A stretch of 64,000 nt of DNA from Cryptosporidium bovis. Lineage: Eukaryota; Apicomplexa; Conoidasida; Eucoccidiorida; Cryptosporidiidae. The notes under the pieces were generated by a model that saw nothing but the letters and a program-made list of their open reading frames with translations, was not told the DNA's origin and ran no database searches. The translations under genes and the position numbers were made by a program. Shown piece after piece: positions 7,217 through 22,540 of this stretch; position 1 is the first letter of the stretch, and each line of letters begins with the position of its first letter. The stretch is from positions 1 through 64,000 of the forward strand of contig VHIT02000052.1 of the NCBI GenBank assembly GCA_009768925.2, in the 5' to 3' direction.

Positions 7217-9274
7217 ATGTTTAAAAGTAAACACAGAAAAGATAGAGAAGAACAGGAAGATGAATTCTCCTTATGCGTGAACAACAAAAGTCTCCAGCTT
7301 CTAACATTTTTTTCAAGTTTGAAACCATTGCTTTATTGGTGCACGATAAGTTCAGTTTTTTCATTTCTCACAATTATTATAAACTACAAACAATCCGGAG
7401 AGGTGCTCATTAACTCATTTGTTGTATTATTTTATGGGTTCACTGGACAGTTGGTTTTTTTCTTATTGCTTCTAAGTAGGATAATAAATATAACTAGTGA
7501 ACAATACTTGACTGCATCTATTACATTATTTAATGATTTGATATTAACAATTCCGAGATATGTACTCTGGGAATTGATTTTCACATCAAGATGGATCTGG
7601 TTATGCTTACATTATTTTTCTGCAACATATTCGATAGTTAAATTGTGGAGTTTGTCAACATTCTTTTCATTTGAACTAACTCCATTCCTAGGAATATTTT
7701 TTTTTACAACTAGCGGTTTATCTTTCATTCGTTACTTTGGCAAAAATCAAAATGTTTTTCTCATATCTTCGCAAAAATATATCAAACATTCGTCCAAATT
7801 GGATTTTTCTGACGACAATTTCTATTTGAAAGACTATTTCAAGTTTATCAAGTGTTTAATTATAGAAGGTGGTGAAGGAGGCATCTCTAATATATTAATT
7901 ATTACTGGTTTATCATATTTAGTTACATTTCCATTATATATAACCGGAATTGGTATTCCTGGAGTTTTAAGTTTTTTTCAATTTATAATTAAGTTGTTAA
8001 CATTTGATGTTGTTTTTTCTAAGAAAATAGACGGAACTTTGTCCACGGTATTTCTAAAGTTTCTTACTTCATTTCTTGTTGTGGCGTTTTACTGGTATTG
8101 TGTTGAGTTACAATCGTCCAACTTCAGATCATTGGTATTTTCGGGGATACCAGAGAAGATTTTGCCACAAACTTCAATTTTTAATGGGAATAAAACATCA
8201 AACAAGTTTATTCCTACTGGAGGTTTCATGAAATTTGTTGATAATATAAACAAAAGAGTTTTATTCAGAAAGAAAAAAGGATTTACTCCAGGAAAAGCAA
8301 TATACAATGCTTGTATTTTCCTTTGTTCAATACTATCCTTTTCTAGCTTCTTTATAATATTGTTCTTCTATATTCGAAGTAAAATATTGAGTGGAAAAAA
8401 TTACAAAAAAAGAGGTGTTGAGCGTAATCAAATGAATATTTTTGAAGAGTGGTTGGAATACGAATATAGAACATTACGTGTTATTGAAAGGTTACAGAAA
8501 CAACTTGAAAACATTTTTTCTACTGTCCTTTTATTGGATTCCTCGGTACACACAAAGTTCACTGCAGTTGCAAACGTTGATTTACAGATAGATATACAGT
8601 CAATTCTGGGACTCGATAGAAAGTTTTTACCCTCTCACCTAAAGATTGACAATTGGTTCTTAAAACATAACGAAATTGACAAAATGAGAGAAAATAATAA
8701 CAATATTGTTAGAGGCATGAATGATTGGTGGTGCTGTAATATTCTACTTTCGAGAAAGCTAAACAATCCCTTTGTTTCAAGCTCAAATATTGAAAGAGCA
8801 ATCTCCCCAAACTGGAATATTTCAAATTCGATAGTCAGCCAAAGAAATGAAATTTTTATGTTTTTACTGAATAAAATGAAAAATGAGTCCCTACAGAATA
8901 AGAACGAAGGAGAAAGAACAAACAAATTATACCCAAAAAACAAAGATATTTCCAGTGATGAAGTTATGACACAAACATTGTTTTTGATGCAAGAAATGGC
9001 TTTAAATACAATAGACCTATGTGTACTACATATTTATTGTTATCATCGTTTCTTGGCAAAAAGCTGTGCCATAAATGGGCTTAGAAACGAAATAAGCTTA
9101 AACCATATTCATCAGTTCATAAATATTTCATCGGAAGTTAGAAATCAAATAAATTGTGCAGCAGAGGTGGGGATACTTAGTTCACCATACATACACCCAA
9201 CATTTGAACAAGATATATTTAGGTTATTTAGAAGTTTGGATGATTCTGTGGAGCTCTTGACATTTATAATTTAA
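7217..9274 (+). CDS. Multi-pass membrane protein, possible Ndc1-like topology
   Basis: A 685-residue protein I do not recognise by clear motif. The first ~380 residues carry about six to seven hydrophobic segments, for example residues about 28-55, 65-90, 120-140, 150-175, 225-245, 270-290 and 355-380. The last ~300 residues look soluble and helical. Its size and a membrane N-terminal half followed by a soluble C-terminal half resemble the transmembrane nucleoporin Ndc1, but this rests on topology only. There is no signal peptide-like N-terminus: it starts with a charged stretch (MFKSKHRKDREEQEDE). The gene is divergent from PKS1 and followed 129 bases later by another plus-strand gene. A transporter-like or uncharacterised apicomplexan membrane protein is equally possible. 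Confidence 0.85.
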   Translation: MFKSKHRKDREEQEDEFSLCVNNKSLQLLTFFSSLKPLLYWCTISSVFSFLTIIINYKQSGEVLINSFVVLFYGFTGQLVFFLLLLSRIINITSEQYLTASITLFNDLILTIPRYVLWELIFTSRWIWLCLHYFSATYSIVKLWSLSTFFSFELTPFLGIFFFTTSGLSFIRYFGKNQNVFLISSQKYIKHSSKLDFSDDNFYLKDYFKFIKCLIIEGGEGGISNILIITGLSYLVTFPLYITGIGIPGVLSFFQFIIKLLTFDVVFSKKIDGTLSTVFLKFLTSFLVVAFYWYCVELQSSNFRSLVFSGIPEKILPQTSIFNGNKTSNKFIPTGGFMKFVDNINKRVLFRKKKGFTPGKAIYNACIFLCSILSFSSFFIILFFYIRSKILSGKNYKKRGVERNQMNIFEEWLEYEYRTLRVIERLQKQLENIFSTVLLLDSSVHTKFTAVANVDLQIDIQSILGLDRKFLPSHLKIDNWFLKHNEIDKMRENNNNIVRGMNDWWCCNILLSRKLNNPFVSSSNIERAISPNWNISNSIVSQRNEIFMFLLNKMKNESLQNKNEGERTNKLYPKNKDISSDEVMTQTLFLMQEMALNTIDLCVLHIYCYHRFLAKSCAINGLRNEISLNHIHQFINISSEVRNQINCAAEVGILSSPYIHPTFEQDIFRLFRSLDDSVELLTFII

Positions 9275-9403: not shown

Positions 9404-10681
9404 ATGATGTTTTCACAAAAGGAAAATTTAAACTCTAACTTAAATAGTGGAAAGTTCAATAACTCATCTGTTCCATTTTCAATCACAATTAATGAACTAA
9501 CTGAAAAGGCAGCGAAAGTACGGTCATTGCTGGAGAGAAGACAGAGAAATGATGCTATAAAGGAATTAATTTCAGTTTCAAGAGGGGAGTTGATGTCAAT
9601 AAATAATATTAAGTCTGAAATAATGAGTGAACATAGGGAATCATTAGAGAAAATTATTGGAATTGTTGAAAAAAAAGTAGATGACTATTTAATAAAAAAT
9701 GAAGCTTTCATTAAATTAAATATCGATCAATGTATTGAGAAAAACAATGAAGTAGTTAATAAAAATTTAGAAAACTTTTTGAAGAGAGTCATATCCTCAA
9801 TTGATTCCATTAACACTAGTAATGACAAATTATGTTTGACTATTGAGGAGCAGAAAAGCAGTGTTGAAAATCATTTCACTGAATTAAATAAATCGATAGA
9901 TGATAAAAATGATTACATTAACAATATTATTAAAATTGAGCTCAGGAATAGGAATGAAAAAGAAAATGGCTTATATCTTTCTCAACTAAGAGTAATTCAG
10001 AAACAGTACGAATTAATAATAAGGGATTTGAGAAAAAAAAATGCGGTTTTGGAGAATGAAATAGAGTCGAAATTAATTTATGAAAAAGAGTTAGAAGAGA
10101 ACATAAAGTTGATTAATATTAAAGTAGGGGAACTTTCAAATTTAATTAACGAAAAGAATGTTGAGATATCCACTCTGAGTTCAAAACTCGATAAATTACG
10201 AGATGAAAATACTAATTTGACAGAAGACATTAGAAGGCTTAAAATAAGGAACGATGGAATGATTAATATATTTAGAGAACAAATAGAATTGTCTAAAAAA
10301 AGATATATTTCCTTTGGAAAAGGCATTTATAGTCTGGAATTTGTTCTTAATAATATTAGGTATAGACAAATAGAGACTGCCTTTACTGACATAAGAGATT
10401 ATTCAAACGTTTTGAACTCAACTAAACCAACTGATCAAGCAAAGTCACATAATAAAATGGAACCTCTCCATAGATTAATTGATGAGAGTAATCTTTACAG
10501 TTTAATTAAAGTTGAGAAGGAAATAAAAGAACAAGAAAAAGAGCAGAACATGATAAACAGATTGCTGGATTTCATAGGAGAAGATAATTTTTTCCAATTA
10601 ATTAGTTTTGTTAGTATAATTAGTAAAAAAAATAATGAAGTGTTAAGAATAGCATTTCTAAATTTGAAATTCAATAGTTAG
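9404..10681 (+). CDS. Coiled-coil protein, function unknown
   Basis: A 425-residue protein rich in Glu, Lys, Asn and Ile. Long heptad-like stretches between about residues 40 and 300 indicate extended coiled coils, and there is no signal peptide or membrane segment. A second ATG follows the first directly, so the start could be either. It ends 24 bases from the stop of the convergent sugar-type transporter. Upstream, the 129-base gap contains a GC-rich patch (TTCGCGC near 9315) like the E2F-type motif reported in Cryptosporidium promoters. No known family is recognised; a cytoskeletal or centrosomal scaffold would be a guess. Confidence 0.85.
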   Translation: MMFSQKENLNSNLNSGKFNNSSVPFSITINELTEKAAKVRSLLERRQRNDAIKELISVSRGELMSINNIKSEIMSEHRESLEKIIGIVEKKVDDYLIKNEAFIKLNIDQCIEKNNEVVNKNLENFLKRVISSIDSINTSNDKLCLTIEEQKSSVENHFTELNKSIDDKNDYINNIIKIELRNRNEKENGLYLSQLRVIQKQYELIIRDLRKKNAVLENEIESKLIYEKELEENIKLINIKVGELSNLINEKNVEISTLSSKLDKLRDENTNLTEDIRRLKIRNDGMINIFREQIELSKKRYISFGKGIYSLEFVLNNIRYRQIETAFTDIRDYSNVLNSTKPTDQAKSHNKMEPLHRLIDESNLYSLIKVEKEIKEQEKEQNMINRLLDFIGEDNFFQLISFVSIISKKNNEVLRIAFLNLKFNS

Positions 10682-10705: not shown

Positions 10706-12247
10706 TTAAGTTATATATGAATCTCTTAGAACTTGATCTGAATATTCAATGTATTTATAATTTATTATTGAAATTGAAACCAATGAAAAAAATGTTAAAA
10801 ATGCATATATAAATGTCATTATAGGTATTGGTAATAATTCGATTAAAATAGTTGACAATGCAGCAGTTAACCAAAAAAATACAAGTATAAATGGAATAAA
10901 TGCAGAATAAAGTTGTTTGGGCAGGTTATTTGATATTATTTTTGACATTGTTGGGATAATTCCAAAACCATATGAAGTAATTGATACTATGAATGCTATT
11001 GACACTATTTTGTTAACAATGCTACCTTGGTTATAATAATAAAGAAAAAAACATATTGATGTAAGAGATAGGAGATTCAGGACCAGACCAAACAAAAGAA
11101 GCCTCTTGCTCCCAATATAAACTTCGAAAAAAATACCAGAGAAAGTAAATATAACCAAGAAACATCCATTTAGAGCTATAATTATAGCTGATAAATCGTG
11201 GTTAATATTTAAGTATCGTGTAAAAATTTTACTACTAGTAACTAACGGCACAAAACCAGTAGATATTCCAGTGAATACAACAATTAAAATGAAGATTAAA
11301 GTCATTCTAAGAGATGGATCAACAAGTATTTGAAGAAGATTAGACCTTGGTACATCATTCCCACCCTCATCCAAAAGCTTCTTGATTATTTTTCTTGTGT
11401 CATTGACTCCGTATATTTCTCTCGCAATCTCTTCTGCTCTACTGATATCTCCAATTTTAATGTAATGTAACGGAGTCTCATCGAAATTCTTAAAAAAAGA
11501 GATAATTAGTAAAGATGCTGATATAATAAAAGGTATTAAGAACAGTGTTCTTACTGAAATAGTTGAACATAGATAATATTTATGTAATTTAGTGACTATT
11601 TCATTATGATTTGGATATTCCAATAATCCCTCGTGATAATTCTGAAGACCATTAAGTAAATTATAGTTGAAGTTAACAATGAGTTGTTTTTTAATGAAGT
11701 ATTTAATAAAAGACGGTATTATATTGCTAAGCAAGTAACTCAACAAGATACCACAACAAAACATTACCTTGTGTAAAGCTAAACATAAATTTTGATTCTG
11801 TTTGTTAGTGAGTTCTTGAATGTATGAAGGGGTCAACAAAAATGAGATTCCAGTCCCAATTCCAGATATAAATCTTCCAAGTGAAAATATTAACAACTCT
11901 TTTTTGACACAAAGAAAAGAACCTAAGGCAAACAATGAGAATGTAACCAATAAAGTTTTAACCTTCCCAAAGCGGTTTGTAATAAATGTTACAATTAAAG
12001 ACCCAATAGAAGAACCAAAAAAAATTGAAGAATTGAGAACTATCATGACGGGCCTCTCTATTCTTGTACTTACTGTTATTCTCAAAGCCTCGTGGTTCTT
12101 GATAAAACGTAAGGAACCCGGGATAAGATAATGAACTAACATTTCCCTCTGTACATTCGTCACACCAAACGAATATCCAACAATTAGCGACAACAAACCT
12201 ACTACAAGTAAGCGTTTTTGGCAGTAACTGAAGAAGGAAAATTTCAT
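10706..12247 (-). CDS. Major facilitator superfamily transporter, sugar-porter type
   Basis: A 513-residue protein with about twelve hydrophobic segments split by a central cytosolic loop. Near residue 90 the sequence NRFGKVKTL follows TM2 and occupies the family A-loop position. GRFISGIGTG matches the TM4 signature of sugar porters. After TM6 the run FDETPLHYI and a following A-rich helix take the place of the usual PESPRWL block, so substrate cannot be inferred closely. It probably sits in the parasite plasma membrane or an organelle and imports hexoses or related small solutes. It starts 87 bases downstream of the alpha-tubulin stop on the same strand, so its promoter must be very short or lie within the tubulin 3' end. 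Confidence 0.85.
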   Translation of the reverse strand: MKFSFFSYCQKRLLVVGLLSLIVGYSFGVTNVQREMLVHYLIPGSLRFIKNHEALRITVSTRIERPVMIVLNSSIFFGSSIGSLIVTFITNRFGKVKTLLVTFSLFALGSFLCVKKELLIFSLGRFISGIGTGISFLLTPSYIQELTNKQNQNLCLALHKVMFCCGILLSYLLSNIIPSFIKYFIKKQLIVNFNYNLLNGLQNYHEGLLEYPNHNEIVTKLHKYYLCSTISVRTLFLIPFIISASLLIISFFKNFDETPLHYIKIGDISRAEEIAREIYGVNDTRKIIKKLLDEGGNDVPRSNLLQILVDPSLRMTLIFILIVVFTGISTGFVPLVTSSKIFTRYLNINHDLSAIIIALNGCFLVIFTFSGIFFEVYIGSKRLLLFGLVLNLLSLTSICFFLYYYNQGSIVNKIVSIAFIVSITSYGFGIIPTMSKIISNNLPKQLYSAFIPFILVFFWLTAALSTILIELLPIPIMTFIYAFLTFFSLVSISIINYKYIEYSDQVLRDSYIT

Positions 12248-12334: not shown

Positions 12335-13699
12335 TTAGAAATCACCTTCATAGTGCACTTCTTCATCATCCCCATCAGCAACTTCAATACCAACTTCTTC
12401 ATAGTCCTTTTCCAGGGCCGCAAGGTCTTCTCTCGCCTCACTAAATTCGCCTTCCTCCATTCCTTCACCAACATACCAGTGAACGAATGCCCTCTTGGAG
12501 TACATCAAATCAAACTTATGGTCCATTCTATTGAAAACCTCCGCAATTGCAGTGGAATTTGAGATCATGCAACACGCACGCATCACCTTCGCAAGGTCAC
12601 CTCCAGGTACCACAGTTGGTGGTTGATAATTAATTCCACACTTGAAACCAGTTGGACACCAGTCTACAAACTGAATAGTTCTCTTTGTCTTTATGGTGGC
12701 AACTGCAGCATTGGTATCCTTGGGTACAACATCGCCTCTATACATGAGACAACACGCCATATATTTCCCATGTCTTGGATCACATTTAGCCATTTGATTT
12801 TGCGGTTCAAATACTGCATTTGTAATTTCCGCTACGCTTAACTGCTCGTGGAAAGCCTTCTCCGCAGAAATAATAGGAGCGTACGAAGAAAGCATAAAAT
12901 GAATTCTCGGATATGGAACCAAATTAGTTTGGAACTCAGTAATGTCTACATTTAGGGCACCATCAAAACGCAAGGAGGCCGTCAAGGAAGATATAACTTG
13001 CGCTATTAGGCGATTTAAATTGGTATACGCTGGCTGCTCAATATTCAAGTTTCTTCTGCAGATGTCATATATTGCCTCATTATCCAACATTACTGCAACA
13101 TCTGCATGTTCTAAGAGAGAGTGGGTTGACAAAACAGCATTATACGGTTCGACAACGGCAGTGCTTAATTGGGGTGACGGCCATGTACAGAAATTTAGCT
13201 TGGATTTTTTTCCATAGTCAACTGATAGTCTCTCAAGCAAAAGAGTTCCAAGTCCAGCACCGGTTCCGCCACCTACGGCGTTGAACATAAGGAAACCTTG
13301 AAGCCCTGTACAGTTATCCGCCAACTTGCGAATTCTATCAAGACAAACTTCCAATATTTCCTTACCGACTGTATAATGCCCCCTGGCAAAGTTATTTGCA
13401 GCGTCTTCTTTTCCGCTAATGAGCTGCTCAGGATGGAACAATTGCCTGTATGTCCCACTTCTTATTTCGTCGACAACAGTCGGTTCAAGATCAACAAAAA
13501 CAGCTCTCGGAACATGTTTACCTGCCCCAGTCTCGCTAAAGAACGTGTTGAAGGCATCATCAGAAATTCCCATATTCTGTTCCGACATAGGCATTGTTCC
13601 ATCAGGATTAATGCCATGCTCTAAACAAAACAACTCCCAACAAGCATTACCTATCTGAATTCCTGCCTGCCCAACGTGTATTGAAATAACTTCACGCAT
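12335..13699 (-). CDS. TUBA: Alpha-tubulin
   Basis: A 454-residue single-exon alpha-tubulin beginning [20 protein letters not shown]. It has the GTP-binding GGGTGAG loop near residue 141 and full length for the family, so it pairs with beta-tubulin to form microtubules of the spindle and subpellicular array. Local GC is clearly higher than in neighbouring genes, as expected for a highly expressed gene. Two features are unusual. Residue 40 is Glu (codon 13582-13580) within the run PMSEQNMG, so the lysine that is acetylated in most alpha-tubulins is absent. The C-terminus ends EGDF, with Phe instead of the usual Tyr. The start is the only one compatible with the conserved MRE N-terminus. Confidence 0.98.
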
Positions 13700-13979: not shown

Positions 13980-14759
13980 CTAAGTTGTTTCTAATAATCT
14001 ACATATTTTAGCGTACACTCTAGCCTTCTTTCTAAATTTTACACTGGTCATTGCCGAAATAATGTGTAACATCCCAGACAATTTCAATAAGAATAACCCG
14101 CAAAGTTTGTGAATTTCCTGTGTCTCGGTAACATGCTTATTTTGATTTTTACATTGATCTTTATTCATTATATGCTGTCCGTATATGCCTTGTGCAATAG
14201 TTCCAAGTTCATTTGTTTCTTCTGTTTGTAATTCGGCGGATTCGTTCGCAAGATTCATTTGAACAAATCCCGCCTTCAACATCCTCCTTAGCATGAAATT
14301 ACACCCCAGTATATTCCTCTTTGTAATAATTATTGAGTTAACATCTTTCTGCCCATTTTCCATCATGCATCTGTCAATTTCAATATATGAGGAAATGTAA
14401 TCTAGGAATTCAAACCTTGGAGTTATTAATACCTCACTGGTTATGCTTTTTACAGGGTGAATAAAAAATAACCAAGGCCTAGATAATTTTATTAGAGTTG
14501 ATTCTTTACTTTCAGTCAACTCTTTTGGTGGGTTAGTGATACAAACTCTGCAATCTTCTCTTGAGAGGAGAGTAATAATCAACTGCCAGGATGCTGTTAT
14601 AGGCACATTCAACCCAAGAGCAATGATTTTTTCTTCAAACTTATTTAACTTATAGTTTACATTATTTTCAATATTTTCACCTCTGGCAAATATTAAATTA
14701 ATAACAAAAACAAAATACAAACAAAATATCAAATTTTTGTAACTTTTCTTCTTTCCCAT
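13980..14759 (-). CDS. Secreted protein of unknown function
   Basis: A 259-residue protein starting with a lysine patch and a strongly hydrophobic stretch (residues about 10-26) ending before GENIENN, a good signal peptide. The mature part contains several cysteines, including a CRVC pair near residue 74, and no further convincing membrane anchor. I recognise no domain. In this organism group such small secreted, single-exon proteins are often lineage-specific and may be exported to the parasite surface or host interface, but nothing in the sequence proves that. The gene is on the same strand as alpha-tubulin and has a ~1 kb empty region upstream. Confidence 0.75.
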   Translation of the reverse strand: MGKKKSYKNLIFCLYFVFVINLIFARGENIENNVNYKLNKFEEKIIALGLNVPITASWQLIITLLSREDCRVCITNPPKELTESKESTLIKLSRPWLFFIHPVKSITSEVLITPRFEFLDYISSYIEIDRCMMENGQKDVNSIIITKRNILGCNFMLRRMLKAGFVQMNLANESAELQTEETNELGTIAQGIYGQHIMNKDQCKNQNKHVTETQEIHKLCGLFLLKLSGMLHIISAMTSVKFRKKARVYAKICRLLETT

Positions 14760-15753: not shown

Positions 15754-16554
15754 TTAACAAATGCCCCATAAATATTCAAATTCATTGCATAATTTTAAGC
15801 AACACAAAGCAGCAGAAAGAGGATATGAGCTAATGCTAATTAATTCTTCAACATACTTGCAATTTTTTATTGGATCACCATATGCAACCGCACCTATAAA
15901 AAACGTTATTGCAGTTGATTTGAAAGTTTTACAATTATTACTATAATCATAAGTTCCAGTAATCTTTGTCCTTAAATTATTCAATTTCCCATTAATAGAT
16001 AGTCCAAACCTCTTGCTACCTGCTGGTAGTATTTTTTCCAAATCATTCTTTATTATTTGCATCAAAACGATGTTTTCCTCTGTTGCAATGACTTTTCTCT
16101 TGACCAATAAATTAACCATTAAGATTGAAAACTCCTTGAAACTTCTTGGAATAGTTATTTGCGGATTAATCTCAATTAATATGTTTCCCGTAGTTCTGAT
16201 ATAAACGAGTAGTTTGCCACTCTTATTTAAAGGCGAGTCTAATAATGCGAGTAGGCATTGATGAACTATGTCTGGTCTAATATTCAATAATAATTCTTCC
16301 TTTGAAAATATATTCTGTTTGCAGGATGAGTAGTATTCTTCTATCCTATTCCTTTGGTGATCAATTCCACTTAAAAGCTCCAGTGATTTATTTTTTTTTT
16401 CGAAGAGTTCCAAACAACTACAAAAAATGTGTAAAAAGTAGGAAAAAAAATCATAAAAAAGTTAAACTTACGCCTGATCGAGAACAACAAACAACTTCTG
16501 CTCGTTTTTCCATTTTGAAATATCTCTAGGAACTTGGATAGTGTTTGAAAACAT
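15754..16554 (-). CDS. EMG1: EMG1/NEP1, 18S rRNA N1-pseudouridine methyltransferase
   Basis: A two-exon gene. Exon 1 is 16554-16472, the intron is 16471-16418 (54 nt, GTAAGT...TTTGTAG) and exon 2 is 16417-15754, giving 248 residues. The splice restores the family N-terminus (KLFVVLDQACLELFEKKNK); without it the ORF begins too late. Family hallmarks are present: RPDIVHQCLLALLDSPLNK, NPQITIPRSFKEF, a glycine-rich FFIGAVAYGD, and the SAM-binding knot end ISSYPLSAALCCLKLC. EMG1 is a SPOUT methyltransferase acting as a dimer in nucleolar small-subunit assembly. It is head-to-head with a second EMG1-like gene 88 bases away, and this is the copy that keeps the active-site features. Confidence 0.93.
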
Positions 16555-16642
16555 TTTTTTTTCAAAATAATTGAGGTGAATAGGTCAAAGGTTGATGGGC
16601 GCTCCTATCTTTAATTTTAGATTCCTATAGAAAGAAGGATTA
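16555..16642. promoter_or_regulatory. 88-bp bidirectional promoter between the two EMG1 genes
   Basis: Only 88 bases separate the two start codons, so both divergent genes must be driven from here. The segment holds AGGTGAATAGGT and a GGGCGC core (near 16598-16603) similar to E2F-like sites. No sequence symmetry between the two halves is obvious by eye. Confidence 0.55.
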
Positions 16643-17419
16643 ATGGAAGAAATAGTTCGTAGGAATAAAATAAGAAAAATACCATCAGATAAATCCACCT
16701 TTGAAGGTACAAAAATAAGTGTCTTATTGTTAAATGCGTAAGTTTCAATTTTTTTTTCACGACATTCGTAATTAAACCTTCACTCTTTTAGAACGTTGTA
16801 TGTTAACAAAAATAAAAATGAAAAAAAGGAGTTGATTACTGTGATGAACTTAATTGAGAAAAAAAGTCAATCGTTTAAGGAAAAAGAAGTGAGACCGGAC
16901 ATAATACATAATTCTCTTTTGATGCTACTTGACAGTCCACTTTGTAAGGCAGGGTACCTATCAGAAATCATTATTCTTAATGAGGATGGGAAAGTAATAA
17001 GGGTCGATCCAAAATTTCGTGTTCCAAGGTCATTTAAGGTATTTAGTAAAGTATTTTCAGAGTTTCTTTCGTCGCCAACAGGAGAGCTCAGGCTTCCAGA
17101 TGGAATGGTAATTTTAAATACTATAAATAAAACAATAGAAGAATGTTTATCGAACGCAGAAATAGTGGTCGGATTTTCAAGAGTTGCAAGGAGGGAGAGC
17201 CTTCAAAGGTTTATGAGAGAGAAGATCAAAAGTATAATTAATAATGGGGGTATACAGAAGTTAATTTTTGTTGTTGGTGCAACATCTAAGGGCTCTACTT
17301 GTGACAGCTACAGTTCCTTTTATTCACATTACATATCTATTTGTGATATTAGTATGCCAACATATATATGTTGTTCAAAAATATGTGGCGAATTGGAGGA
17401 GATACTTGGGATACTTTGA
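16643..17419 (+). CDS. Divergent EMG1/NEP1 paralogue, probably degenerate in SAM binding
   Basis: A two-exon gene. Exon 1 is 16643-16737, the intron is 16738-16791 (54 nt, GTAAGT...TTTTAG) and exon 2 is 16792-17419, giving 240 residues. The intron splits an Ala codon in phase 2 at the same alignment point as in the neighbouring EMG1 (VLLLNA|TLYVNKNK against VVLDQA|CLELFEKK). RPDIIHNSLLMLLDSPLCKAG-type and VPRSFKVF blocks are retained, and FVVGATSKGS keeps the knot glycine. The segment that in the partner reads SSYPLSAAL is CDISMPTYI here, so the SAM-contacting loop is not conserved. This looks like an old duplicate turned into a non-catalytic or altered subunit, perhaps a heterodimer partner. 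It ends 23 bases from a convergent small gene. Confidence 0.88.
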
Positions 17420-17799: not shown

Positions 17800-18741
17800 C
17801 TATTGCAATTTTTTAGATAGATCATTTATCGTTTTTGCTTTGTATGTTTCATACCAGTCAAGTGTTCTCAAAATTATTTGTGAGATTGGAATATTTTCTG
17901 ATGGTTTATCCTTTGGTTTATCTATTTTTGAAACTACTTGAATTTCCGCAAGTTTTCTCGACAAGAACCATAAATCCATGCTCTCACTATAAATTCTGGG
18001 ATATTCATCTTCTAAATGATCTATGTCCGCACTTTTAGAGTTCTCTATATTGTAGTCAGGTGCATTAGAATTGTTATCTTCTTTGTCCAATTTGCTTTCT
18101 GGAGTGATTTGTCTAATTTCGTCAATAAAGTAGTTGTCTATTTGGGAGCAAATTTCGTTTCTTTCAATAGAAGATTCAGTGTTGTCTTCATTTCTGATCT
18201 TTATGTGGTTTGGCTTATTTTCAACGGCATTAAATTGTATACGATTATAATCATCAATGACGTTTGGCCTTGTACATGAACAAAATGATATTTTTTTACG
18301 AGTTATTATTTTATCACTTTTTTTTTTAACTTTTGTAGATATTTTTGTCACTTTTTTCTTAATTTTGTGATAGTTTTCTTTTGTGAATAGGCTTTGATAG
18401 CTCATTTGATTATTTATTGAATTTTTTGGTTTAGCACTAAATTTGTTGCCATTTTCTGTTGAAGATTTAGTATTAATTCTAATTTGGTTTTTATTTTTTT
18501 TCTTTGAAAGAAACTTGCTCATGTCACTTTTGGAAATAACGCTATCACTTTCATATTCACAACCTTCATTGTATATTTTCGTATTCCGATAATAGAGTTT
18601 AGCATTTAACTTTGAATCATATTCATCTGAAATGTCATACACTGCTTTAATAGGAAGAACTGACCAATCTTGTTCAGATTTAAAAGATATTTTCGAAATC
18701 TCAGATTTCATATTAATTTCAAGAGTTATGTAAATTTGCAA
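17800..18741 (-). CDS. Basic, low-complexity hypothetical protein
   Basis: A 313-residue protein rich in Lys, Ser, Asn, Asp and Ile with no signal peptide or membrane segment. A lysine-rich patch (KKKVTKISTKVKKKSDK, around residues 128-145) is followed by a CSC motif and an acidic C-terminal half. No domain is recognised. An internal Met ten residues downstream is a possible alternative start. It lies 123 bases upstream of the small membrane protein on the same strand and is divergent from the large secreted protein at 19085. Confidence 0.7.
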   Translation of the reverse strand: MQIYITLEINMKSEISKISFKSEQDWSVLPIKAVYDISDEYDSKLNAKLYYRNTKIYNEGCEYESDSVISKSDMSKFLSKKKNKNQIRINTKSSTENGNKFSAKPKNSINNQMSYQSLFTKENYHKIKKKVTKISTKVKKKSDKIITRKKISFCSCTRPNVIDDYNRIQFNAVENKPNHIKIRNEDNTESSIERNEICSQIDNYFIDEIRQITPESKLDKEDNNSNAPDYNIENSKSADIDHLEDEYPRIYSESMDLWFLSRKLAEIQVVSKIDKPKDKPSENIPISQIILRTLDWYETYKAKTINDLSKKLQ

Positions 18742-19084: not shown

Positions 19085-22000
19085 ATGATATATAAGGTTA
19101 TATTGCTACTTTTGGAGTTGTTAACTTGTTTTAGTTATATTTTGTGTGACTGTAGTAGATATGGTCGCTACAAATATTGTAATGGTTTTACTGATAAAGA
19201 TAAAGTCAAATTTTTTGATGTTTCAGTATCTTTTGCACCTGAGGTTGAAACATTTTCATTGATTAAGGAACACATTAGGGTTATTAGAGAGTACATTGAA
19301 AGTTCAGATGAGTTTAATATGGATAATGCTACCAAACATAATGATACAAGCTATCAGATTGAAGATGAAATATTGTTTATGGAGTCATTTATTTCTTCAT
19401 TTTCCTTACAGTCAAATATTACAACCCCATTTTCAACAAATGGAGTTACAATAAATGCAGCTTTAGAAGAAATAAATAATTGCAAGCTAACAAATATATT
19501 TGAAGTTAATACTGATGATATGGGTGAATCGATTAAAAACCACTTGATTACAAAAGTAATTCCAGAATTCGACTATATTAATAGGACTATCTCGGTAATA
19601 CCATGGAATGTAGTAAATAATACGATTTACAGTGTAGTTCCTGAAATTCAAAGAATGGCATATAAATTGTCATTAATTTTCACAGCAATTAGCACGAATA
19701 TTGATTTAATTAGATTTTATTCGGGTAATAGGGATGTGAAAAAATCCCAATGGGAGGCACTACAAATGGCTTCACTCTCAAGAGGATATTCAAGATACAT
19801 TATTGAGACTCTACCTTTAGCATCATCATTGATTTTGATTTCTCCAAACTCTGAAGATAACTTTTCATTTATTTCTGAAATGGGCATGAATTTATCTTTA
19901 GAGTATCCAAAAAAATTAATTGATAAAATGAAATTCATAAACTCTGAACTGAAGAGTGATTTCAATTGTATTGAATTTTTCAGAGATAGCGACACAAAAA
20001 AGACATGCATAGTTTGCTCAACTTTGTTTCTAACTCTATTTTTTCGCCTTCAATGCCATTTTTTGGAAACTGGAGTTTCTAGAGAGGTAATTCTCGGAAT
20101 AAGATTGATTGAAGAGACAAAGTCTCATTTAAATCAACTTTATAACTTTGCATTGTCAATTTGGAATAGTTATTACTACAAATTGCATGAAAGCAACTCA
20201 CACTATACACCTCCAAAGCCTTATATTTCATGGATGGCATTAAAGTTGAAGCTGTATGATCAATTCAGGATTATTATGAATTTTCACAAAAAAATTGAAC
20301 AATCATCCACCTTAGATTTGCACATTAATTCTTCGTTTTCAAAGAAGGAAAAGAGAGACACAGAAATAAACAATTATATAGAACTTAAAGTTATGGACTC
20401 CATTTTAAACCTAGATGGATTGAAAAAATGTGAGATGGAAACGATTGAAAAGATTACAGATACATATAATAAGATTGTTGCTGTAAGTGAATACTCTCCA
20501 AGAGATATTTTATTTGGTTCGAGTAACAAGTTGAGTAATTCATTAAATGCTGTTTCAATAATTATTGGAGCTTTTACAGATGGTGAGTTTATAAATTATA
20601 GCATTGAAAATATAAAAGATAAAAAACACGAACTTACAAGCAAAGAATGTGGAACTTTACATCGTGAAATTAACCACATTGATTCTAAGCCTTCAGAATT
20701 CATTGAAATATTTAATAAGTATTTATATTGTAAATATAAATTAGACATTCAAATAAGCTATCAATTTTCTTTGAAAAATAGATTTGAAATAGTAAAACGT
20801 GCTTTGAGAAAAATTACAATTTACACAAGGAATTTACTATTTGACAAATTAAGAGAGAGAAAAAACAATATTGAGGTTGAAGAATTTCCCAAATTTCATA
20901 TTCAATTTGTAAAGCTTCTATCACAGTTTCAAATTATTTTAGGTATGGCGAAAATAATTAGAACAAAACTGAAGGCTGTTTCTAAAAATTTAAGTGGGCT
21001 AATTCCTGAAGTCGAGTATTGCGTGTCGAGTCTTGAAAAATATAAGATGAAACTTGCAAGCCATATATTTAATAGGGAACATTACTATCGCAGAAAGGGA
21101 ATAAATAAGGATAAACATAACATTACTTATTTACTTTCACCACTTACAACTTCACTTGGTCCTTCTATTATTGATTCCACCGGAAATAATTTAAAAAAAT
21201 CAATAAATGAGTTAAGATATAAAATATCATTATTAGATAAGTTCGTAACCCTTTCAAGAAACATTTTAATTGGAAGAAGGGGTTTTCTTCAGAATTCTGT
21301 GCAAAACCATAACAAAAACTTGTTAATTTACTCTACAGCTCTTAGGATTTATGATAATAAGGATGAACTTTATATTGCCAGTGAATTTACAAAGGCTGTG
21401 TATAGAACATTAAAGAAGGTAATAAAAACAGTAGCAGAGCCTTTGAATGTTAATAACAGTGAAATGAATTCTAATTTTATTGACTTTGGGGCAAGTGGTT
21501 CATGCAATTATAAGAATGAAATTTTATCACTAAAAAATTCCGAGTATTTGGGTTGCAGATTGTATGTAAAAATTGTTGAAATGATTCAAGTTGATGAGTT
21601 GTACAATCTTATTCAGAAACAAATAATAACAACAGATAATACAGAGAGAAAAATATATTTTGAAATTAGTGGGCTATTTGATGAAATATGGCCAAATTTT
21701 GAGGTTAAAGGTAAAAAACAGAATTTTAAAAGACTTTCTTCAAAATCGTATCTTTTGAAGTCTCTTCTCGAGAATATGACTATCTTCTATGGATTATCAA
21801 AGAATTTATTGGTACCATACACACGTGGAATCTATAATTTTTCATGTTTATTCGATTTCCTCGTTGGTAGTATAGAAACTATTGAAGATTCCACAAAGGA
21901 GATTCCAATAATATATTTACGTAAGAGCTCGAAAATGAGACTGAAAAAGATAGGTTTGTTCATTAAGGCAATTTTTGCGAGAAAAGAAAGAATAAAAAGA

Positions 22001-22540
22001 CAGAAAAGGAAAAATCTAGAGAAGGAAATAAAAAAACTAGGAAAGGTGTTACTTGGATTGGAACCATATGTAATCAATATTGATACTTCATTTAAAGTGA
22101 ACGTAGAAAGTTTGAGTTTTATAAAAATTGAAACAATGAATGTGATAAAAAAGCTTTTTCATCTGTATATTCACTGTATTTATTCCACACTCAAAAAAAT
22201 TATTTCAACTGGAATAACCAACAAACACATTACATCCGAAGTTGGGGAGGAATGGAGCCATTTTGTTCAACAGTTAAATTTTATTAAAAATTCGACGTTA
22301 AATCAATTGAGTATTATCCTGGTAAGTTTTTATTTCATAATATTACAAGTTATTATAACTATTTTTAAAGCCACTTTTCATTCAGAATTTAGAGATTAGA
22401 AACGCGGCAAGTAAACTGACTAAACAAGTTATGATTAATCAGGTGAGGTTAAAAAAAAAGGTGAAAGGGGAATAAATAACTTTTGATTTTAGGGAAAACT
22501 CATATCTCAAATAGAGAGCTACAAAGAAAACTGGCTTTAG
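19085..22540 (+). CDS. Large secreted helical protein with two 3' mini-introns
   Basis: The protein starts with a clear signal peptide (MIYKVILLLLELLTCFSYIL, cleavage near CDCSRYG). I resolve the 3' end as three exons: 19085-22321, 22386-22442 and 22493-22540. The introns are 22322-22385 (64 nt, GTAAGT...TTCAG) and 22443-22492 (50 nt, GTGAGG...TTTTAG), both phase 0, for 1113 residues ending KENWL. Without splicing the frame ends in an artificial hydrophobic tail read from intron sequence. The body is rich in helices, polar residues and scattered cysteines, with a basic region near residues 950-990 (KARKERIKRQKRK-like). No family is recognised. It may be a parasite secretory or invasion-stage protein, by inference from the signal peptide only. 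Confidence 0.8.

Follow-up and report, generated by a model that had tools for sequence, protein, structure and literature searches.

Head-to-head EMG1/NEP1 paralogs in Cryptosporidium bovis and a possible divided rRNA methyltransferase

EMG1/NEP1 (PF03587), the 18S rRNA pseudouridine N1-methyltransferase represented by structures from yeast (3OIJ/3OIN) and human (5FAI), is to our knowledge usually encoded by a single-copy gene. Its active site sits where the subunits meet. In the yeast 90S particle, docking on S5 and linker RNA involves the same subunit that carries the helix-31 target, which makes the seats of the dimer unequal. Yeast EMG1 has, as Meyer reportedly found in 2011, two roles, one essential in assembly and one as a methyltransferase. 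The protein is described as widely conserved and needed for small-subunit assembly, with mutation leading to Bowen-Conradi syndrome (PMC9508554, PMC4633970); helices A and E are given as the core of the dimer (PMC4860837), and the yeast substitutions R88A, R129A, R132A and R136A as each abolishing RNA binding (PMC6191724). Here, we describe a 64,000-nucleotide stretch of the Cryptosporidium bovis genome (contig VHIT02000052.1; the window) in which two EMG1/NEP1 genes, named minus and plus by their strands, lie head to head with 88 bp between both ATGs. The two resemble other EMG1 proteins in whole-domain Pfam match, fold and the RPDI..LLDSPL and PR.F motifs. In contrast to other EMG1 systems, there are two copies, of which plus has an altered third S-adenosylmethionine (SAM) bight and no R136, and minus lacks both R129 and R136. 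We propose, with a probability of about one half, that minus and plus form a heterodimer in which one subunit binds the methyl donor and the other grips RNA, and which would replace the usual EMG1 homodimer.

Degenerate partners of this kind are known from other enzymes. Trypanosoma prozymes are dead paralogs reported to activate AdoMetDC, deoxyhypusine synthase and PRMT1 (PMC5201418, PMC6221367, PMC3663545, PMC10908127). As with prozymes, Cryptosporidium has a parasite-lineage paralog beside a presumably active sister, and the paralog has been long kept, with plus and minus clades each at bootstrap 100 and each holding a C. andersoni row; the altered SAM loop of plus may correspond to the lost catalytic residues of prozymes. 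Association and activation, reported for the trypanosome proteins, which are other enzymes, would be predicted for the Cryptosporidium pair. In METTL3-METTL14 and DNMT3A-DNMT3L, an inactive methyltransferase-like partner activates its sister (PMC10908127), although these pairs belong to fold classes other than that of EMG1. The yeast COG2106 SPOUT paralogs Ymr310c/Ygr283c include a diverged copy put forward as a possible inactive partner, a role given as a proposal and in a different SPOUT family (PMC1829167). The review cited for these partner systems names SPOUT once and Nep1/EMG1 never (PMC10908127), and, within the portions drawn on here, a 2013 survey of small-subunit processome proteins gives Emg1 as generally present and lists other paralog pairs, not an EMG1 pair. 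Our literature searches on Cryptosporidium with Emg1 or Nep1, and on four gene tags, found no paper on this pair; some deposited annotations already label plus and minus copies with names such as Mra1/NEP1-like. If the heterodimer is real, a genus-wide two-subunit EMG1 would be a natural system separating catalytic from structural jobs, and the enzymes that use dead-paralog partners would gain a SPOUT member.

Both copies are full members of the family, as the original prediction had held. PF03587 matched minus at 190.4 bits and plus at 131.5 bits (cut-off 28.2), in each case over profile positions 1-197 of 197. AlphaFold2 single-chain models of plus and minus (predicted local distance difference test scores of 89.9 and 91.1, respectively) contained the extended SPOUT alpha/beta-knot fold, and the closest PDB structures to both were EMG1/Nep1 chains; the plus fold was modeled on C. 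xiaoi protein P0001, to which our plus gene model aligns without gaps over 240 residues at 97% identity. The minus gene model is identical over 248 amino acids to deposited C. bovis protein FG379_003045 (P0014). Between them, the minus and plus proteins share 29% identity (BLASTP E = 5e-21), and a six-frame search of the whole genome (9.06 Mb, 43 contigs) recovered these two EMG1 candidates only.

Plus is altered in the presumed SAM pocket and keeps most of the RNA-binding residues. Residues are given in yeast numbering and compared with 179 other EMG1 rows (206 retrieved proteins minus 11 plus, 12 minus and 4 short rows), which are mutually related, so that counts among them are not independent. 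Minus reads SSYPLSAAL where plus reads CDISMPTYI, as first noticed in the original prediction; a full alignment, the test named there, did not rescue the plus loop, which was changed in 12/12 rows. Ser233 of the YPLSA loop is proline in all 12 plus rows and serine in 11/11 readable minus rows; serine or threonine stands there in 178/179 other rows and proline in 0/179. Leu232 and Asn105 were also changed in every plus row, the latter to cysteine (12/12), which occurs in 4/179 other rows as well. Neither copy has changed R88, D90, D101, S102 or R132 at any readable place, and plus retains R88 (9/9 readable) together with R129 and R132 (12/12). Across eight full-length plus rows, invariant columns made up 16/19 of the RPDI..LLDSP helix, the most conserved stretch of plus with no other equal-length window as high, and 14/20 of the PR.F loop and helix, compared with 2/14 of bight 2 and 5/11 of bight 3. 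Using segments picked after the alignment was viewed, 30/39 RNA-contact columns and 7/25 SAM-bight columns were invariant in plus (p 2e-4), compared with 28/39 and 18/25 at the same columns in minus (p 1.0). Given its altered third bight, the plus protein alone is probably not a methyltransferase. The change in its SAM loop looks stepwise, with C. andersoni plus reading SISNYSMPASI, partway from the standard SNYPLSAAL to the intestinal SDISIPSYI.

Two observations touch on the plus protein and its loop. Its N-terminus carries a basic RNKxRK stretch (window 16661-16678, plus strand; residues 7-12), a possible RNA or nucleolar signal, which is kept in six other full-length plus rows and partly in C. 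andersoni, and was not seen in minus. Two plant EMG1-like proteins, P0204 (Reevesia pubescens) and P0197 (Xanthoceras sorbifolium), have an altered C-terminal SAM-loop region, and degenerate EMG1 copies or gene models may therefore occur elsewhere too.

The predicted contrast between an intact minus and a degenerate plus stood for the plus SAM loop and proved too simple for minus, which keeps R88 and R132 in 12/12 rows and lacks R129 and R136 in 12/12. Position 136 is glutamate in all 12 minus rows and valine, isoleucine or leucine in all 12 plus rows, so that minus retains 2/4 and plus 3/4 of the RNA-contact arginines. Conservation reached 90% or more of the 179 rows in 43 columns. Of these, both copies keep 24 and both have lost 4; plus alone has lost 10 and partly lost another 4, compared with a single loss, that of R129, in minus alone. 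Minus would be the methyl-donor-binding EMG1. R129 is missing in 4/179 other rows, P0026 and P0043 among them, which weakened our initial candidate of R129 as a unique complementary loss in minus; Babesia EMG1 keeps R129. P0026 and P0043 hint that a shift in the RNA contacts of EMG1 could be more widespread among apicomplexans.

The EMG1 pair is old and retained in Cryptosporidium, since both copies occur in nine named species/groups, including C. bovis and the gastric C. andersoni. Searching with the plus protein gave 13 matches, 10 of them plus-type: C. xiaoi, C. ryanae, C. ubiquitum, C. tyzzeri, chipmunk genotype I, C. canis, C. felis and P0007-P0009, the last three assigned to Cryptosporidium by likeness. 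The C. andersoni plus copy (P0133) was recovered by a profile search, not by the initial protein search, and outside Cryptosporidium rows the next profile score was 102 bits compared with 257 for C. andersoni (best 120 of 140 matches). The minus search returned rows from the same species as plus and from C. andersoni, with C. parvum standing for the tyzzeri group. None of the few probable gregarine rows covered was of plus type. Equal-sized source contigs suggest that both copies share one contig in seven cases (C. xiaoi, C. ryanae, C. ubiquitum, chipmunk genotype I, C. felis, C. andersoni and one further contig of 6,087 bp), and in C. xiaoi the locus tags of the two are consecutive; for C. 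canis and the tyzzeri/parvum group, minus and plus are listed on different contigs. Full-length plus models were obtained in eight species/groups, with 240 amino acids in seven (the C. bovis model included) and 251 in C. andersoni, and 78/240 columns were invariant over these eight rows. The deposited C. felis plus copy (P0010) starts at MLLDSPL and has 166 amino acids; its gene model probably leaves out the whole of exon 1 and the beginning of exon 2.

Gene structure argues for a shared origin of the two copies. The 54-nt phase-2 introns proposed from the window were reconstructed in both genes within the same aligned alanine codon, split as GC/T in minus and GC/A in plus, and both have the form GTAAGT...TAG. 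Reading through either intron meets an immediate frame stop, after 28 and 32 amino acids, respectively. In both models the greater part of the fold's first strand comes from exon 1, which supports splicing of both genes, and the shared intron position favors a spliced common ancestor. Intron interiors showed no detectable likeness between minus and plus beyond the splice ends (shuffles were as good in 20%), nor did their coding DNA show a convincing one (best E 0.065, out of register). Within the 88 bp, GGGCGC was considered as a shared-promoter motif and dropped, with 2 occurrences in the window compared with 1.58 expected.

When the copies arose is less sharply placed. In all three trees, plus and minus each formed one clade with the C. 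andersoni row branching first, so the copies parted before C. andersoni split from the other sampled species. The branch parting plus from the rest measured 1.7, 3.3 and 2.6 changes per column in the first, second and third tree, respectively, summed over both parts in the second and third, where the midpoint root fell on the plus stem. Plus joined the long row P0141 (Nematocida) in the first tree, which we flagged as a long-branch join, and the second tree left out P0141 and other long rows. In the third, Babesia was the first partner of P0026 and P0043 (90/68), and the minus clade joined these three next (94/100, not starred). Constraining plus, minus and P0026 to one clade gave an approximately unbiased p value (p-AU) of 0.139 in the second tree, and a clade of plus, minus, P0026, P0043 and Babesia was not rejected in the third (p-AU 0.381); P0026, P0043 and Babesia were grouped by hand from shared motifs, and P0043 and Babesia are long rows. 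Forcing plus and minus alone together cost about 8 log-likelihood units (p-AU 0.041 and 0.066 in the second and third trees). Of the predicted inverted duplication after intron gain, paralogy and matching introns held, and a duplication inside Cryptosporidium did not emerge clearly; given the long plus stem and these values, we do not accept a recent inverted duplication as proven. The duplication may date to the Cryptosporidium stem or earlier in apicomplexans, and the long stem makes any placement unsure.

In the heterodimer that we propose, the minus subunit would bind SAM, and the plus subunit, which still has the fold of EMG1 together with its RNA-contact helix and loop (R88, D90, R129, R132), would supply the RNA grip through R129 and fill the structural seat. 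Both genes could be co-expressed from the shared 88 bp. The loss of SAM binding by plus, the dimerization, the division of labor and the co-expression are all predictions from genes and alignments. We tentatively extend the proposal further: the heterodimer would be obligate and its single active site composite, with minus holding SAM without R129 and plus, without SAM, keeping R129; such a SPOUT-family prozyme pair might occupy, in one fixed orientation, the unequal pair of EMG1 seats in the 90S particle. As to other parts of the pathway, the C. bovis genome held one match to PF04034, presumably the Tsr3 family that acts on the same nucleotide as EMG1, and no exact match to the expected helix-31 string, either because the rDNA is missing from the assembly or because it differs.

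Several findings weigh against the heterodimer. R136 is lost in both copies, so the heterodimer would lack it as well. P0026 and P0043 are apicomplexan-like and have neither R129 nor R136, and because they show a weak grouping with Babesia and with the minus clade, minus may have inherited its lack of R129 as an older apicomplexan trait that predates the plus copy and is unrelated to it. The trees do not make plus and minus sisters; a long stem carries plus, apart from the minus clade. The C-terminal helix of plus, which we take to be helix E, the second dimer helix, is invariant at 10/19 columns, and 54/222 windows are as high. In bight 2 of C. bovis plus, G207, A208 and G212 are still present, so some SAM binding may persist. 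Finally, the SAM-holding role of the bights is presumed from family knowledge. The bights of RlmH are offered as a comparison for such loops (PMC5430550).

The main alternative is a division of roles without heterodimer, in which a plus homodimer would serve as a non-catalytic RNA-binding assembly factor while a minus homodimer methylates. The three RNA-contact arginines and conserved basic N-terminus of plus fit such a factor, the SAM loop retained in minus fits its methylating counterpart, and P0026 and P0043 suggest that an EMG1 can do without R129 and R136. However, paralogs of an obligate dimer often still pair, and the RPDI..LLDSP helix is the most conserved part of plus; the assumed second dimer helix does not stand out in this way, which fits either reading. 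We regard separate homodimers as possible, if somewhat doubtful. It is improbable that both copies are active methyltransferases, with plus using a changed SAM pocket on a different target. Its fold is kept, the bight 2 residues G207, A208 and G212 persist in the C. bovis group and C. andersoni plus (glycine at both G207 and G212 in four plus rows), and the C. andersoni SNYSMPASI is nearer the standard loop; yet proline replaces Ser233 in every plus row, and bight 2 is far less invariant in plus (2/14) than at the same columns in minus (10/14). Plus proteins diverge 1.39 times as much as minus proteins (mean of 28 pairs), which might be read as decay of a pseudogene, but full-length models in eight species/groups and their 78 invariant columns make this very improbable and point to a protein that evolves faster under constraint.

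Table 1. Positions in the window of the two EMG1/NEP1 genes and their main features
Feature	Position	Strand	Description
Minus copy exon 1	16472..16554	-	83 nt; codes for residues 1-27 plus two bases of the Ala28 codon; deposited protein P0014 identical
Minus copy intron	16418..16471	-	54 nt, phase 2, GT..AG; modeled from sequence
Minus copy exon 2 with stop	15754..16417	-	EMG1/NEP1 domain; whole protein 248 amino acids
Minus SSYPLSAAL	15805..15831	-	Residues 224-232; presumed third SAM-binding bight, role from family knowledge
Minus Thr116	16153..16155	-	Aligned with yeast Arg129; RNA contact lost
Intergenic stretch	16555..16642	strandless	88 bp between ATGs; presumed shared two-way promoter
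Plus copy exon 1	16643..16737	+	95 nt; codes for residues 1-31 plus two bases of the Ala32 codon; P0001-P0006 align across
Plus copy intron	16738..16791	+	54 nt, phase 2, GT..AG; modeled from sequence
Plus copy exon 2 with stop	16792..17419	+	EMG1/NEP1 domain; whole protein 240 amino acids
Plus Arg108	17018..17020	+	Aligned with yeast Arg129; RNA contact kept
Plus CDISMPTYI	17342..17368	+	Residues 216-224; altered third SAM-binding bight; Pro221 at the place of yeast Ser233

Around the pair, five of the seven tested frames had no Pfam match at E <= 0.001: 19085-22396 (+), 17803-18741 (-), 13983-14759 (-), 7217-9271 (+) and 9404-10678 (+). A Tubulin-family gene (Tubulin and Tubulin_C) lies at 12338-13699 (-), separated from the EMG1 pair by one open frame, and a sugar transporter/major facilitator superfamily protein of 513 amino acids is encoded at 10709-12247 (-).
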